Source: Dokdonia sp. (GTDB lineage: Bacteria; Bacteroidota; Bacteroidia; Flavobacteriales; Flavobacteriaceae). Taken from it: a stretch of DNA of 37,340 bases. Shown one piece after another: positions 878 through 18,508 of the stretch (positions are counted from its first letter, which is position 1; each line of letters opens with the position of its first letter). Under the pieces are notes generated by a model that saw only the letters and a list, made by a program, of their open reading frames with translations, did not search any database and was not told where the DNA came from. A program made the translations under genes and the position numbers. The stretch covers positions 1-37,340 of the forward strand of contig JALZVV010000050.1 in the NCBI GenBank assembly GCA_023299935.1. Direction: 5' to 3'.

Positions 878-1519
878 ATGAAAACACTCAAAATGATGGC
901 GCTCCTGTGCCTTTCTGTATTGGCATTAGTCTCCTGTATCCAGGGCAATGACACTACAGCAACCGAAAGTAGCGAGCCTATTGCTCCACCAGGTATTATT
1001 ATCCCTGTTCAAGAGGCAGAAAATCTGTACCACCGTTATGGAGAGAAAAGAGTCTCTCTTATAGAAAAGGCTATTAATGTAGATGATGAAGGTAACCCAA
1101 TATCTCAAAATGACAGCAGTTATGTCCAAGCGACAACTTCTCTTACAGTAGATTATACTGATTTAAAAAATTATCTAGCATTTATTGAACAAGAAGCAAG
1201 TAATGCCAATACTGACATAACAGGATTACGTATTTATTTTGGAAAATATGCAGATACCACAAACGATGGAAGAGCCACCATGTTTATGAATCCAGTTAAA
1301 AAATACGGAGCTGGAGGAATTACAGATGACGTTGCTTTTGCCATAGATAAGTCTGGAAAAAAACCTAAGGCTGTTTATGTGAAGGATTGTTACAAAGTCC
1401 CCGGCACTATGACTAACCAAGCCAACTTAACGATGCCCATACAAGGCACCATACAGAGTCTAGCGGCCAATAATTCTCCTTGGAGACCACCGCCAACAAA
1501 TGACCCAGATTATCAATAA
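878..1519 (+). CDS. Small predicted lipoprotein, paralogue of 2310-2909
   Basis: Signal peptide and lipobox (LALVSC); shared block YTDLKNYLAFIEQEA...LRIYFGKY and Pro-rich C-terminus WRPPPTNDPDYQ. Confidence 0.85.
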   Translation: MKTLKMMALLCLSVLALVSCIQGNDTTATESSEPIAPPGIIIPVQEAENLYHRYGEKRVSLIEKAINVDDEGNPISQNDSSYVQATTSLTVDYTDLKNYLAFIEQEASNANTDITGLRIYFGKYADTTNDGRATMFMNPVKKYGAGGITDDVAFAIDKSGKKPKAVYVKDCYKVPGTMTNQANLTMPIQGTIQSLAANNSPWRPPPTNDPDYQ

Positions 1520-1543
1520 CATTTATTAAAATCGTTGCCGATT

Positions 1544-2203
1544 ATGGATTACTATTATTATACGGTATTTTTTACTGAATTTTTGGCAGCTATATCGGCA
1601 ACGGTTTTTTTGTATAAGTATAAGAATACAGCGCTTTTTTGGTTATTGCCATTATTATGGTTTATTCCTATCAATGAATTAGTGTGCCAATATATCTTTC
1701 CGAGAACAGCTACAGGGTATATTCTATATAATATATACAGAACAGCTGTGCCACTTGCAATAATTTTTTTAGTTCTTTCCAAATTGCGAAAAAGGCTCAA
1801 TCGTCTTATTGTAATAGTTCAAATATCATTTGCTATTCTTTTATATATTTCTGAAGTATTTATAATAAATCCTCTTAATACTTTTATTGATTTTTCCTTT
1901 ACCGCGGCATCAATATTTATTGTTATTTCTCTTTTAATCTATTTTATTGAAGAAATTAATGGCAATTATCATTCTCAAGTCAACAGAAATCTATTTTTGT
2001 GGGTATGTTTTGGATTTTTAATTTTTCATATTACATATCCAATAATATTTTTTGCACAAAAATATATTGCACTAGAAAATGAAGTTTTTATTTTATCTCT
2101 TAATAAGTTACAACTTATATTGTCTATTGCTTCCTATCTCATAATTGCTTTCGGTTTTTATTATGGGGATACCGTAACAACTACAGCAGATGGAGGTCAA
2201 TAG
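1544..2203 (+). CDS. Polytopic (about 7 TM) membrane protein, array member A
   Basis: MDYYYYTVFFTEFLAA...; several hydrophobic segments; shares YKYK..L..LPLLW, ILYN.Y and C-terminal AFGFYYGD motifs with neighbours. Start moved from the track's TTG at 1535 to ATG 1544. Confidence 0.8.
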   Translation: MDYYYYTVFFTEFLAAISATVFLYKYKNTALFWLLPLLWFIPINELVCQYIFPRTATGYILYNIYRTAVPLAIIFLVLSKLRKRLNRLIVIVQISFAILLYISEVFIINPLNTFIDFSFTAASIFIVISLLIYFIEEINGNYHSQVNRNLFLWVCFGFLIFHITYPIIFFAQKYIALENEVFILSLNKLQLILSIASYLIIAFGFYYGDTVTTTADGGQ

Positions 2204-2309
2204 CACCAATGCAATTATTACAAGAATAATCCTTTCTACTTTTACAAAATAGTTTTTTATAACTGCTTAGATTATAGTATATTTAATAATTAACAAAAAA
2301 ATCAACAAC

Positions 2310-2909
2310 ATGATTAAAAAAAACTTGATGCTCCTATTGTTCCTGGCAATAGCTTGCATGGTTTCCTGTGAACAGGACAACGACCCACAAAACATTGAGG
2401 AGGTAAATCTCACTGCAACACTCCCATCTTCATCTAACACTCCAAAAGTATTACTTTCTATTGATGATGCCAAGGCAATGATGGACACCTATAATGACGA
2501 TATTAGTCGTAGTAATATTGAAGATGCACCACATTTTGTAGACTTTGATTACAAAGATCTTAAAGAGTATCTCTTATTTATTGAAAGTCAATCTAAAGAG
2601 GCAAATGTCGAGATAGAAGCGCTTCGATTTTATTTTGCGCAATACCCTTCTCAGTATCCATCGGGAAAAACACCTAAAGATGTCAATAAAAAATCTTTAT
2701 TTTACAATCCAGTAACGGCATTCCCAGGATTAATAGGTAATATGTCTTATGCTATACAGAAAAATGTAGACGGCACCTCAGAAGCGGTTACGGTGGGAAG
2801 TATTCTTGACATGGGTAAGTCTAATGATACTGATGTACAAAGTCTAGCAGGAGACGACTTAGAATGGCCACCACCTCCATATCCAAATGATCCAAATGAC
2901 TATCACTAA
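2310..2909 (+). CDS. Small predicted lipoprotein, paralogue of 878-1519
   Basis: Lipobox ACMVSC; YKDLKEYLLFIESQSKEANVEIEALRFYFAQYPS...WPPPPYPNDPNDYH parallels the first lipoprotein. Confidence 0.85.
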   Translation: MIKKNLMLLLFLAIACMVSCEQDNDPQNIEEVNLTATLPSSSNTPKVLLSIDDAKAMMDTYNDDISRSNIEDAPHFVDFDYKDLKEYLLFIESQSKEANVEIEALRFYFAQYPSQYPSGKTPKDVNKKSLFYNPVTAFPGLIGNMSYAIQKNVDGTSEAVTVGSILDMGKSNDTDVQSLAGDDLEWPPPPYPNDPNDYH

Positions 2910-2931
2910 GAATAAATAAAATGGAGCCAGA

Positions 2932-3590
2932 ATGAATGCATTAGAAATAATAGCACATACTGCTGAATTAATTGCAGCTATTCTGGCTACTTTTCATTTT
3001 TATAAACACAGCAATAGTACTTAAGGTACTTTCTATTTTATCTCTGGTATGTAGTTCTAAATGAATTAATGGCCTATTTTCTCTTATCTTTAGGTCTTAT
3101 TCGATTTGAATTGACCAATATTTATGGTTTAATTACTCCTCTATATGTAATCTGGACCTGCAAGAGCTTTTTAGCCTCTAAAAAAGCAAAGCGACTACTT
3201 AGCCTGTTTGTTCTAATCATTTGTGTGGTCAATCTCACAGAAGGAATACTCAAAGGCTTACATAACGAACCTTGGACGACAAGTAAAATCACAGGACCTT
3301 TATTGAGTGTTGCCGCCTTTACCATTTATTTAATAGGCCTCTTTAAATTAAATGAGGTCATCAATCCCTTCAAGGATATTTTTACCTATTTTTTATTGGG
3401 CTTTACCTTATTTTCTGTAGCCTCTCCTATTATCCTTCTTGGTAGGACTTTCTATCTGGACAACTATAGCATGAGTGTTAACTTATCCTATATCATGGGG
3501 TCCGTGGTCATAGCGATGTATCTTATTTTTGCTTTCGGTTTTTATTATGGGGATAGGGTAATACCTAGGTCAGATAGTACTTTTGAGTAG
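2932..3590 (+). pseudogene. 7-TM array member B, disrupted by a single-nucleotide frameshift near 3019-3022
   Basis: 2932 frame gives MNALEIIAHTAELIAAILATFHFYKHSNST*; the frame of the 3069 ORF read back to 3021 gives LRYFLFYLWYVVLNELMAYFLL..., which together align with A (MDYYYYTVFFTEFLAAISATVFLYKYKNTALFWLLPLLWFIPINEL). Confidence 0.8.
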
Positions 3591-3619
3591 TTTGCATTTG
3601 GAATTATTGATGCGCGAGT

Positions 3620-3685
3620 ATAATCATGATAAATGTAAGATTATTCTGTCATGACATTTCCGTTACATCCAATTGATTAATTTTG
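3620..3685 (+). promoter_or_regulatory. Candidate promoter/operator for the downstream array-HK-RR unit: ATAATC-N13-GATTAT dyad, TGTCATGACA palindrome, TAATTTTG -7 element
   Basis: ATAATC 3620-3625, GATTAT 3639-3644, TGTCATGACA 3647-3656, TAATTTTG 3678-3685 (fits Bacteroidetes TAnnTTTG); GTG start at 3708; no clear -33 TTG. Confidence 0.4.
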
Positions 3686-3707
3686 TGGTTCATACAGTTA
3701 TTGCCCA

Positions 3708-4358
3708 GTGTTAGAACCAGCTTATATTTTTGAATGGCTTGCCGCCCTTGCCGGCCTTGTATTTTTTTATAAATACAAGCAGTTTCCTATTAAGTGGGTA
3801 CTCGCCCTAGTGTGGCTCACCGTATTTGTAGAAACCGCTGCAAAATTCCAGGTCTTGTTTATAGATGGCACCAATCATTTAATTTATAATTGCTACCTCA
3901 TAACCTCTTATCCTCTCCTATACTATATTATCTATAGTCACATGCAACATCCTTTACGCAAAAAAATTGTTGCCGGCATTGCCATAGCGGTGACAACCGC
4001 AATGCTTTTTAGAGCATTTACCACTCCTTTTCTCACGACCTTTATGGTATATATGTTTAGCTTAGCTGTAATTGGTTTAGTGGCTATTTTACTCTTGTAT
4101 GCCATAGACTTACTTAAAAGCAACAATCAAATTACCTTTAAAAATAGATTGGAGTTATTCGTGTTTGCAGGGTACATGATATTTGGCATTAGTTATATCC
4201 CTTTGTCTTACGTTCTAACTTCCTTTGAGTTTATTCAATTAGGGCCGGAGACTATGAGCATCTTATACGGGATTCAAAATAGTACTGTTATTTTTATGAA
4301 TATCCTGTTTATCGTAGGCTTGATATGGACAGATCCAAGAAAGCAGATCTCAAATTAG
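3708..4358 (+). CDS. Polytopic (about 7 TM) membrane protein, array member C (GTG start)
   Basis: MLEPAYIFEWLAALAGLVFFYKYKQFPIKWVLALVW...LIYNCYLI...FKNRLELFVFAGYMIFGISYIPLSYV...; shares family motifs. Confidence 0.8.
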   Translation: MLEPAYIFEWLAALAGLVFFYKYKQFPIKWVLALVWLTVFVETAAKFQVLFIDGTNHLIYNCYLITSYPLLYYIIYSHMQHPLRKKIVAGIAIAVTTAMLFRAFTTPFLTTFMVYMFSLAVIGLVAILLLYAIDLLKSNNQITFKNRLELFVFAGYMIFGISYIPLSYVLTSFEFIQLGPETMSILYGIQNSTVIFMNILFIVGLIWTDPRKQISN

Positions 4359-4439
4359 GGGCAAATACCCTATACTCAGGAGTTTCAAAAATTCTAACTT
4401 ACAAACTTATATTGTCCAACAATTCGCAATGTGCTCTTA

Positions 4440-4571
4440 ATGAACCAAGAAGAGGTATTAATATTGTATTTAATTATAGCTATTATACTATTGCTACTCT
4501 TTTTTGTGGCTACTCTTTTTTGTGGCATTGCCTTGTATTATAGATTCGATAATAAAACAGCTATAACCTAA
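4440..4571 (+). CDS. 43-aa single-TM mini-protein resembling the histidine kinase N-terminus (possible kinase remnant)
   Basis: MNQEEVLILYLIIAIILLLLFFVATLFCGIALYYRFDNKTAIT compared with HK MDEKSTLIIVLVSVTILLLLVVIVAVLFSVFIKRKNS; same relative position after a 7-TM gene; ends 4 bp before the next gene. Confidence 0.5.
   Translation: MNQEEVLILYLIIAIILLLLFFVATLFCGIALYYRFDNKTAIT
4494..4525 (+). repeat. Perfect 16-bp tandem duplication (CTACTCTTTTTTGTGG x2)
   Basis: 4494-4509 and 4510-4525 identical. Confidence 0.95.
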
Positions 4572-4575
4572 GCCT

Positions 4576-5232
4576 ATGTCGTATTATCATATTGTTTACG
4601 CCATATTTTTATCTTTCATGGCACTCACTTGTATTGTGGTCACCTCCCAGCGAGCTAAGTATAAACATACGCCGCTGGTTATGGCACCTGCCATTCTCTG
4701 GCTTGGTCTTATCTCAGAAGGTGGTGGTTTTTTGTATGGCACCTATGTGACCTATGACAATGGATGGATTTACAACACGACAAATATTATTTTCTTTGCA
4801 TTATTATACTGGATGATGTATCGTTATATCACTAAAGCAGGTCTGCGCAAGATTGCTAGAATCCTGGCTATATTAGGGATTGCTTTTTATGTCTTCAGAT
4901 TTTTTACCGCAGACAGCTTTAATGTGCGATTAAGCATTGCCCATTGTGTGGCAGTTGCTATTTTTCTTGTGCTGTCTATTATGTATATCATTCAGTTATT
5001 ACGTAGTAATATGTCCTTCTATTTTAGAGAACATCCAGAATTTATTTTTATTGGAGGATTTCTTATTTTAAATCTAGTGTACGCTCCTATTTATGTTTCT
5101 AGCGATTTAGACTTGCATATCTTTAGTGAAAGCTTTTACACCTTTCTCTCTTCCATACACAGCTATGTCTATATGGCAATCAACTTGCTGTTTATGATTG
5201 GGTTTTTATGGTCTAAAAAAGCACGTATATAA
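4576..5232 (+). CDS. Polytopic (about 7 TM) membrane protein, array member D
   Basis: MSYYHIVYAIFLSFMALTCIVVTSQRAKYKHTPLVMAPAILWLGLISE...; closely resembles member E. Confidence 0.85.
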   Translation: MSYYHIVYAIFLSFMALTCIVVTSQRAKYKHTPLVMAPAILWLGLISEGGGFLYGTYVTYDNGWIYNTTNIIFFALLYWMMYRYITKAGLRKIARILAILGIAFYVFRFFTADSFNVRLSIAHCVAVAIFLVLSIMYIIQLLRSNMSFYFREHPEFIFIGGFLILNLVYAPIYVSSDLDLHIFSESFYTFLSSIHSYVYMAINLLFMIGFLWSKKARI

Positions 5233-5271
5233 TTATATTTGAATTGTCCTGACCAAAATCTAAAACCCACT

Positions 5272-5928
5272 ATGTCTTACTATGAGACCTTACTCACAAT
5301 TTATCTCAGCATCTCATTCATTTGCTGTTCTATAGTGAGCTCGCAGTATCATAAATACAAACATACACCCCTCAAACTAGCACCCGCTATTTTATGGCTA
5401 GGTTTTGTAACAGAATTTTCGGCAACCTTATATAGCAATTATATCGAGGTGTACAACGGTTGGATTTTTAATGGTTATACTTTTTTCTTTTATCTACTGC
5501 TGTATATCTTAGTACTTAGATATCTCAAAAATATAAGATTTAAAATAACCACAGTCCTATTGGGTAGCGCAGCCTTACTATTTTTTGTTTACAGATTCTT
5601 CTCAACGGGATTATACAATGATCGTTTTATATATGCAAATGCAGTATTAATTTTAGTATTTCTAATAAGCTGCGCGATGTATTTAGCAGAATTATTACAA
5701 CGTCCAACACAACTTGAATTTAGAAAACATCCCGAGTTTTTTTTATTGGGTGGTTATCTCATTTTTCATCTGATTTACACACCACTTAGTGTTGCCTATG
5801 ATCAAGAACTACGAATATTTAGTAGTGAATTTTATATAACCCTAATTTCCATACAAAGCTACATTTTGATAGCAATGAACCTCTTATTTATTTACATTTT
5901 TATATGGACGAGAAAAGCACACTTATAA
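5272..5928 (+). CDS. Polytopic (about 7 TM) membrane protein, array member E
   Basis: MSYYETLLTIYLSISFICCSIVSSQYHKYKHTPLKLAPAILWLGFVTE...; ATG 5272 preferred over TTG 5239; 3' end overlaps the HK start by 25 bp. Confidence 0.85.
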   Translation: MSYYETLLTIYLSISFICCSIVSSQYHKYKHTPLKLAPAILWLGFVTEFSATLYSNYIEVYNGWIFNGYTFFFYLLLYILVLRYLKNIRFKITTVLLGSAALLFFVYRFFSTGLYNDRFIYANAVLILVFLISCAMYLAELLQRPTQLEFRKHPEFFLLGGYLIFHLIYTPLSVAYDQELRIFSSEFYITLISIQSYILIAMNLLFIYIFIWTRKAHL

Positions 5929-6674
5929 TTGTATTGGTATCGGTTACTATCTTGCTGCTACTGGTAGTAATTGTGGCTGTGCTTTTTTCGGTATTTATAA
6001 AACGTAAGAACAGCCTATTAACTGAGCAGCAAGATGCTCAAAAACGTTTTGAACAAGAAATTGCAGAGACACAAATAGAGATTCGTGAAGAAACTTTGCG
6101 TAACATAAGTTGGGAGCTTCATGATAACATAGGACAACTCCTTACCCTAGCCAAAATACAAACCCAAAATGCAGGATCAGACCAAAGTATGCTGGATGAA
6201 GCTGCTGCAACCATAGGCAAGGGACTTACAGAGATACGAGCCCTTTCTAAATTAATTAACCCAGAAGCCCTCAACACGCTTTCCTTAACAGAAGCTTTAG
6301 AACTAGAGCTCGAACGTTTTCATAGGATGGCGTATCTTAAACCTACCCTTACAGTAAGTGGTTCTCCTATAGCAATAGATAAAAAAATAGAAGTCATTAT
6401 TTTTAGAGTGTTGCAAGAGTTTTTTACCAATACCATCAAGCATTCTAAAGCCACAACACTCTTGGTAGACGTAAGCTATAGTGACTCTTTGCTTGAAGTC
6501 ATTGCTCAGGACAATGGAGTGGGCTTTAACTACACAGAAGCCCGAGCAAAAAATGGCATTGGCTTGACCAATATAGAATCCAGAGGAAAACTAATAGGTG
6601 CTGTTATTGCCATATCTTCCCAAGACGGAGAAGGTACACGATTACGTTTAACTTATAAACCACAAAAATTATGA
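5904..6674 (+). CDS. Sensor histidine kinase (HisKA_3/NarX-LiaS class) with one N-terminal TM and no evident sensory domain
   Basis: Phospho-acceptor region RNISWELHDNIGQLLTLAKIQ; N-box FFTNTIKHSKAT; G1 DNGVGFN; G2 GIGLTNIESRGKLIGA. Confidence 0.92.
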   Translation: MDEKSTLIIVLVSVTILLLLVVIVAVLFSVFIKRKNSLLTEQQDAQKRFEQEIAETQIEIREETLRNISWELHDNIGQLLTLAKIQTQNAGSDQSMLDEAAATIGKGLTEIRALSKLINPEALNTLSLTEALELELERFHRMAYLKPTLTVSGSPIAIDKKIEVIIFRVLQEFFTNTIKHSKATTLLVDVSYSDSLLEVIAQDNGVGFNYTEARAKNGIGLTNIESRGKLIGAVIAISSQDGEGTRLRLTYKPQKL

Positions 6675-7300
6675 CAACTATTGTAGTCGTTGACGATCAC
6701 ACTTTATTATCGCAAGCCATAAGCGGTCTCGTTAACTCTTTTCAAGACTTTACGGTCTTATATACCGCAAAAAATGGTCAGGATTTTATTGACCAGTTGG
6801 TTTTTCCAGACAAACATCCAGACATTGTTCTTATGGATGTTAATATGCCTATAATGGATGGGATAGAAGCCACCACTTATCTCAAAGAACATTTTCCAGA
6901 CATTAAGGTGCTTGCGCTTTCTGTAGAAGAAGAGGAGCATGTAATTTTAAAAATGCTTCGGGCGGGAGCCAAAGGGTATTTATTAAAAGACACAGAAAAA
7001 TCTGTCCTTCATAGTGCTTTAAAAGAGGTTGTAAATCTAGGTTTTTATCATAGCAATACGGTATCACAATTGCTTGTACGCTCCTTAGACAAGGATAATG
7101 TACTTGCCCTTAAAGAACGGGAGATTGAGTTCATAAAGCACGCCTGTACAGAAATGACCTATAATGAGATTGCAGAAAAGATGTTCCTAAGCCCTAAAAC
7201 GGTACAAGGATATAGGGATAGTGTCTTCTCAAAACTCAACTTAAAAAACAGAACAGGACTGGTAATATACGCCATAAAGAATGGCTATTTTAAGCCCTAA
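6671..7300 (+). CDS. NarL/LuxR-family response regulator
   Basis: Receiver domain IVVVDDHTLL...IVLMDVNMPIMDG...GAKGYLLKD; HTH LKEREIEFIKHACTEMTYNEIAEKMFLSPKTVQGYRDSVFSKLNLKNRTGLVIYAIKNG; ATGA overlap with HK. Confidence 0.95.
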   Translation: MTTIVVVDDHTLLSQAISGLVNSFQDFTVLYTAKNGQDFIDQLVFPDKHPDIVLMDVNMPIMDGIEATTYLKEHFPDIKVLALSVEEEEHVILKMLRAGAKGYLLKDTEKSVLHSALKEVVNLGFYHSNTVSQLLVRSLDKDNVLALKEREIEFIKHACTEMTYNEIAEKMFLSPKTVQGYRDSVFSKLNLKNRTGLVIYAIKNGYFKP

Positions 7301-18115: not shown

Positions 18116-18508
18116 GTGAAATACGTAACGAGCATATTTATATTTATTACCTCACTCGCGGTATTTTCTCAAGAAGATGCGCAAAGAGTTTTTCACAAAC
18201 AGTTTACTAAAGAAGATGGTCTTAATATAGAAACGATTAATACCATTGCCCAGAACAATAACGGTTGTGTGTTGCTAGGTGGTGGGATTACGCAAGTGCG
18301 CTTGGACTTATTGGGAGAAACACAACCCACTACATTACAACGTTTTAATTTCTATTCCTTTCATACTATTGCATTACCTGATAATGATTTGAGTAGTGTA
18401 AAATACATTCATAAAAGAAAAAATGGGGATTTTTATGTCCTTACAGAACAATCACTATATCTATTCAACCTTATTACCACAAGCTTTAAAAAAATTGTGA
18501 GTCCATAA
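18116..18508 (+). pseudogene. Truncated N-terminal relic of a beta-propeller (Reg_prop) sensor/HTCC-type regulator
   Basis: Signal peptide then FHKQFTKEDGLNIETINTIAQNNNG...; stops after 130 aa and continues in-frame as KSGIYKIYNSNNKKYIITQYGFEVIVNNL*. Confidence 0.55.

Follow-up and report, generated by a model that had tools for sequence, protein, structure and literature searches.

How does a histidine kinase with no room for a sensor domain receive its signal? The question is posed by a locus at positions 878-7300 of a Dokdonia sp. contig (GenBank assembly GCA_023299935.1, contig JALZVV010000050.1; "the window" is this whole stretch of 37,340 nucleotides), where five genes of seven-transmembrane (7TM) type, A to E, and two lipoprotein genes precede such a kinase and its response regulator, all on the + strand. 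Our preferred answer, to which we assign a probability of about 0.7, is that the locus encodes a split receptor-kinase system in which a 7TM protein and its lipoprotein would form the detachable receptor of the kinase.

The kinase gene (5904-6674) overlaps 7TM gene E by 25 bp (5904-5928) and the gene for the NarL/LuxR-type regulator (6671-7300) by 4 bp (6671-6674). Pfam detects four domains, all above cut-off, namely HisKA_3 and HATPase_c in the kinase and a receiver and GerE in the regulator. The WELHDN motif with its phospho-accepting histidine (H-box WELHDNIGQ) and the ATP-binding motifs are conserved in the kinase, and by sequence the pair is a two-component system. The kinase has a single N-terminal transmembrane helix (about 5925-5999) with about six residues before it, which leaves no space for a sensor domain, and the Pfam scan of the kinase found only HisKA_3 and HATPase_c and no sensory domain.

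To score the 7TM proteins, we used a profile built from 155 members of the family with Dokdonia excluded, and 200 hydropathy-preserving shuffles of each protein served as the control. A (1544-2203, 219 amino acids), C (3708-4358, 216 amino acids, GTG start), D (4576-5232, 218 amino acids) and E (5272-5928, 218 amino acids) score 101.7, 118.0, 101.2 and 105.5 bits, respectively, and the B fragment scores 56.6 bits, whereas the best shuffle reaches 18.4 bits. D and E are 42% identical, the remaining array pairs are about 24-29% identical, and C is the sister of D/E in the tree. The profile assigns all five to one seven-helix family, in which A, C, D and E are complete genes and B is broken. The B frame that opens at 2932 (gene at 2932-3591) meets a stop after 30 codons, and the remainder lies in another frame from about 3018, which places the frameshift near 3018-3022. 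Because B orthologues are intact in other Dokdonia genomes (L034, L035, L040 and L050; L numbers are our locus labels), the broken frame seems to stem either from the recent loss of one base, which would make B a pseudogene, or from misassembly of the metagenome-assembled genome, which comprises 251 contigs and is 85% complete. A first-pass annotation of this DNA, made from the letters alone, had described five paralogous 7TM genes with motifs shared by eye. The profile confirms the motifs and the single family, with B as the frameshifted exception; the sensor-less, one-helix kinase, both overlaps and the gene starts at 878, 1544, 2310, 3708, 4576, 5272, 5904 and 6671 were also read correctly.

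The AlphaFold2 model of A, computed from 65 sequences, has exactly seven helices, with a predicted local distance difference test (pLDDT) score of 93.9 and a predicted template modeling (pTM) score of 0.89. The positive-inside charge pattern across 201 sequences predicts an N-out/C-in orientation, as the K+R values are 3.2, 3.6, 2.3 and 2.5 for loops 1-2, 3-4 and 5-6 and the C terminus, respectively, versus 0.1-1.1 outside. The conserved residues include E45, N63, Y133, G157, P167 and G204-F205, and helices 5, 6 and 7 carry many of the most conserved ones at their inner ends. Entropy is 2.48 in the inner helix halves versus 2.95 in the more variable outer halves (p 1e-5), and the inner half was the more conserved in 53 of 58 comparisons of recent 7TM alleles. 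A fixed inner half with a variable outer half is the pattern that a receptor with a fixed partner on the inside would show. The ratio of nonsynonymous to synonymous substitution rates (dN/dS) is mostly 0.02-0.20; the 7TM genes are thus under purifying selection and, by the allele comparisons below, behave as interchangeable modules.

No Pfam match was found for 65 family members, and neither NCBIfam nor a sequence search of the PDB gave a match. Foldseek, which had been proposed as a check, was run on the 7TM model and placed 7TM receptors on top among the matches listed, but the best match (E 0.098, TM-score about 0.5, without a control fold) is not significant. The family has the N-out seven-helix receptor topology of G-protein-coupled receptors (GPCRs), heliorhodopsins and PAQR proteins, here as a prediction, but no sequence relation to them, and the GPCR-like fold of the model is a resemblance only.

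The basic unit in Flavobacteriaceae is lipoprotein-7TM-kinase-regulator, and it recurs in many unrelated places on the chromosome. All 18 Dokdonia genomes encode the 7TM family; in them the locus is usually flanked by asnS on one side and by rpoN or a transporter-like gene on the other, and its simplest version consists of these four genes (L044, L045, L047, L048, L049). Among the 301 Flavobacteriaceae genomes sampled, 184 encode the 7TM protein; in loci found through it, a lipoprotein homologue is upstream in 40/40 and the kinase directly downstream in 35/40. A phylum-wide sample gave matches to the 7TM profile in 82 of 393 Bacteroidota genomes, including other families, with the kinase kept in 24 of 27 loci. 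In the reverse test we started from the kinase and from named genomes (Aquimarina, Polaribacter, Aequorivita, Kordia, Tenacibaculum, Leeuwenhoekiella and others) and took the 80 loci closest by kinase match; these, like the other loci read, are a selected and not a random sample. The 7TM gene was upstream in 78/80 loci and all four genes were present in 76/80, and in most of these loci the 7TM stop and the kinase start overlap. In the other four, a contig end cuts off the lipoprotein in two and the 7TM gene in one, and the last, L184, was rejected as a kinase without a 7TM gene since asnS is missing there too, probably through an assembly gap. The identified flanking genes are all housekeeping genes (asnS, rpoN, rho-proCBA, panB), so the cassette has no effector of its own. 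The first-pass annotation had named adjacency to such kinases elsewhere as a check, which these counts bear out, and had proposed interchangeable sensor subunits for one split kinase; a single family of exchangeable, kinase-adjacent modules agrees with that proposal, but the basic unit elsewhere has one each of lipoprotein, 7TM protein, kinase and regulator.

In the tree, the Dokdonia array genes fall into orthologous groups of old origin (A, A', B, C and D/E), and the three 7TM copies in each of L099 and L235 group together, indicating independent expansions. On this phylogeny, tandem receptors arose repeatedly and the five-member array of the window is a lineage-specific expansion. In L254 and L258 (both Kordia) and in L091, the lipoprotein is multiplied instead of the 7TM gene, with three successive copies ahead of a single 7TM gene. 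In L034-L036, a small open reading frame that follows C and precedes the kinase was ruled out as a 7TM remnant, its sequence being unrelated.

The two lipoproteins of the window, LipA (878-1519, 213 amino acids, lipobox LVSC) and LipB (2310-2909, 199 amino acids, lipobox MVSC), are homologous (27% identity, E 1e-16). LipA is the putative partner of 7TM protein A, and its homologues are directly 5' of a 7TM gene in most loci. In the model of the lipoprotein, a small alpha/beta body carries a tail that is largely disordered; sequence searches against Pfam, NCBIfam and the PDB gave no match, and Foldseek gave none that was significant or consistent. Almost all homologues end in the frame S-L-x-x-N/D-(variable 3-5)-P-P(-P). 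In Dokdonia the variable core of 3-5 residues is flanked by SLAG and PPPP, and in Aequorivita an invariant N and PPP surround three highly variable residues. The LipA tail (1451-1516), IQSLAANNSPWRPPPTNDPDYQ, has this conserved frame around a variable core, and the LipB tail, VQSLAGDDLEWPPPPYPNDPNDYH, is encoded at 2835-2906. The tail is our best candidate for the contact, and perhaps for the ligand.

Some pairs of Dokdonia loci are nearly identical except for single genes. Between L034 and L035, B is 50% identical (synonymous divergence, dS, 3.0) and A is 62% identical (dS 2.0), while nearly all other genes are 90-100% identical, with LipB, A', C, the kinase and the regulator at 95-100% and LipA at 90%. 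Between L039 and L040, B and A are 42% identical and LipA is partly affected (76%), while LipB, C, the kinase and the regulator are 91-100% identical, C being 97% and the kinase and regulator identical or nearly so. For the more distant pair L035 and L040, the opposite is seen, where dS is 0.11 for B and 0.32 for A' versus 1.0-2.6 for most other genes, and these low values point to recent transfer. By sliding-window comparison, the exchanged segment begins within the lipoprotein gene, with a left breakpoint some 100 bp or more ahead of the end of that gene, and its right breakpoint in most cases falls close to where the 7TM gene ends.

The tail switches with the receptor allele. LipB of L034 and L035 is nearly identical through QSLAGDD and then reads VIW in one and WEY in the other before PPPP, with one more difference after, and the 7TM alleles that follow are 50% identical. 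Conversely, the LipB bodies of L035 and L040 are divergent (78%), but the tail is identical from SLAGDD on and the following 7TM proteins are 95% identical. Across 155 cassettes, the tail tracks the 7TM allele with the body held constant in 23 focal cassettes versus 1, and in 72 versus 4 triplets, a test in which phylogenetic dependence is only partly removed. The identities of 7TM protein and kinase are similarly discordant in Aquimarina, Aequorivita and Kordia. These comparisons show that 7TM alleles are swapped between strains along with the lipoprotein tail, which resembles pheromone-receptor polymorphism.

In the split receptor-kinase model, the receptor would be an inner-membrane 7TM protein, N-out and C-in, paired with a small lipoprotein. 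Since the modules are exchanged as tail plus 7TM units, each tail would most likely touch the 7TM protein encoded with it and gate that protein. The conserved inner half of the 7TM protein would signal laterally to the transmembrane helix of the input-less HisKA_3 kinase, which would then phosphorylate the co-encoded NarL-type regulator. The duplicated modules of the window (A, B, C, D and E), two of them with their own lipoprotein, would all feed the single kinase, and strains trade modules by recombination as units of lipoprotein tail plus 7TM protein. The data show one family, a conserved gene order, a predicted fold and topology, purifying selection, exchange of alleles and a tail that covaries with the 7TM protein, whereas the role of the 7TM protein as sensor, its contact with the kinase, its contact with the tail, and the signal are the parts of this model that we infer.

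Several observations weigh against this model. E is a 66-residue remnant in L032 (7621-7821), where an in-frame internal deletion joins about residues 1-46 to 196-218 and the overlap with the kinase gene is kept (the D orthologue of that locus is 75% identical to D of the window); together with the broken B of the window, this suggests that individual array members are dispensable. Five genomes (G245, G126, G138, G028, G098) hold lipoprotein-7TM(-7TM) with no family kinase genome-wide, as in L096, L100, L102, L103 and L105, which also have no regulator (the L096 copy is beside rho and proCBA), so the lipoprotein-7TM pair may act through another partner too. Of 175 lipoprotein homologues, 31 have no hydrophobic N terminus, with no hidden upstream signal peptide where checked; they include the LipB orthologues of five Dokdonia genomes (L034:3893-4414, L035, L039, L040, L050), although window LipB has a lipobox, and such homologues fit poorly with a periplasmic or extracellular ligand. 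Finally, tail and 7TM gene are adjacent, with a spacing of 4-47 bp in most pairs listed, and hitch-hiking by linkage alone could yield their covariation with no functional reason needed.

The last two points bear on a stronger form of the model, in which the tail itself would act as a peptide signal, either released or still tethered, with the 7TM protein as its polymorphic receptor, a pherotype-like cell-cell signaling arrangement with the logic of ComX/ComP or Agr. A variable peptide and a variable receptor do change together here, as a pheromone system would have it, though confounded by linkage, and the conserved frame around a variable core, the LipB tails that switch in L034/L035 and are shared in L035/L040, the predicted lack of structure in the tail and the variability of the outer 7TM half all suit this proposal. 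Given also that the cassette has no processing or export gene, that some homologues have no export signal and that we found no supporting description in the open-access literature, we regard it as possible but on the unlikely side. Its extension to a Bacteroidota-wide mode of peptide recognition, in which a polymorphic, GPCR-shaped receptor with a separate sensor-less kinase would have the tail as its cognate ligand and receptor-ligand modules would be duplicated and traded between species, we consider slightly less likely still.

Outer-half allele replacement would also result if phages or toxins attacked exposed membrane proteins, so that diversity would reflect escape and not ligand specificity, and the 7TM protein and lipoprotein would then be an accessory regulator of the kinase, either inhibiting it as LiaF does or sensing damage. 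For HisKA_3 kinases, accessory inhibitors in the membrane are known (LiaF, PMC3543457). Escape does not readily explain why the tail of a separate protein changes along with the 7TM allele while the lipoprotein body and the kinase-side helices remain conserved, or why several 7TM copies are retained for one kinase, and we judge this account improbable. More improbable still is an enzymatic or transport function of the 7TM protein, for instance as an AgrB-like membrane peptidase acting on the lipoprotein tail, with the kinase sensing its product. Such a role would fit the polar residues E45 and N63, which are conserved in the outer half of the membrane, and the pairs that persist without a kinase, but the conserved positions include no Cys/His pair or metal motif, Pfam and the PDB gave no match to a peptidase, and the kinase has no domain for sensing a product.

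How does the split receptor-kinase model compare with known systems? LiaF is an inhibitor and not a seven-helix protein, and no lipoprotein partner, receptor arrays or allele exchange are known from LiaFSR/VraTSR. These three-component systems (PMC3543457) share with the cassette a nearly sensor-less HisKA_3 kinase, a NarL-type regulator and a separate membrane protein alongside. Our kinase scores 63.9 bits against the LiaS model, far below the cut-off of 450, and no protein of the locus matches LiaF in Pfam or NCBIfam. In UhpABC, a separate membrane sensor, UhpC, acts on the HisKA_3 kinase UhpB, and the regulator is of NarL type. The arrangement is alike, but UhpC is a transporter homologue of about 12 helices, and our kinase scores 86 bits against the UhpB model (cut-off 408). 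A seven-helix membrane input to a signaling enzyme is also found in 7TMR-DISM, HisKA_7TM and LytS/BtsS proteins (PMC10653868), but in those proteins the enzyme and the 7TM part form one chain, and here the genes are separate. A profile comparison with 7TMR-DISM_7TM and HisKA_7TM gave probabilities of 2-3% and 0.2%, the level of reversed sequences, with remote family members at 99.9% as the positive control, and none of 65 family members matched either in Pfam. A fused 7TM-kinase (Rosetta stone) was sought in about 690 Flavobacteriaceae and Bacteroidota genomes, and none was found, the frames being <=310 amino acids among the matches listed. The initial picture of a 7TM sensor kinase broken into separate genes has thus gained no direct support. 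ComQXPA and Agr are Gram-positive systems in which the receptor is fused to the kinase and a processing enzyme is encoded in the locus. As in those systems, a polymorphic C-terminal peptide and a multi-helix receptor covary while the regulator and kinase core are conserved, but here the candidate peptide is a lipoprotein tail and the putative receptor is separate from the kinase. We also considered the colony-spreading genes pep25/lbp26 (PMC9950754) and csl (PMC7807042) as potential relatives and found no link.

Elsewhere in the window, the intergenic region between asnS and the array (200-870) has two direct copies of a 162-bp unit (436-597 and 598-759, 86%), along with numerous short repeats that are AT-rich. 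The gene for ribosomal protein L21 (32709-33419) encodes a long C-terminal extension whose final segment resembles a helix-hairpin-helix (KKIEGIGPKIAQTL), and a 130-residue open reading frame at 18116-18508 resembles the start of a two-component-regulator propeller protein and is possibly a truncated gene.

We found no published account of a lipoprotein-7TM-kinase-regulator system in the open-access literature, and the libraries and papers that we searched describe no such receptor, although the 7TM family is widespread in Flavobacteriaceae, and we consider the cassette a previously undescribed four-part sensing system. Also new is the finding that Dokdonia loci which are otherwise nearly identical differ in single 7TM genes, replaced by alleles of only 42-62% identity, with the tail switching along. 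To our knowledge, no native peptide signaling system has been established in Bacteroidota, and the matched variable tails offer a direct route to a ligand, with the natural allele pairs L034/L035 and L039/L040 as ready-made swaps. If the split receptor-kinase model is true, several exchangeable receptors of seven helices can provide the input of one bare histidine kinase.

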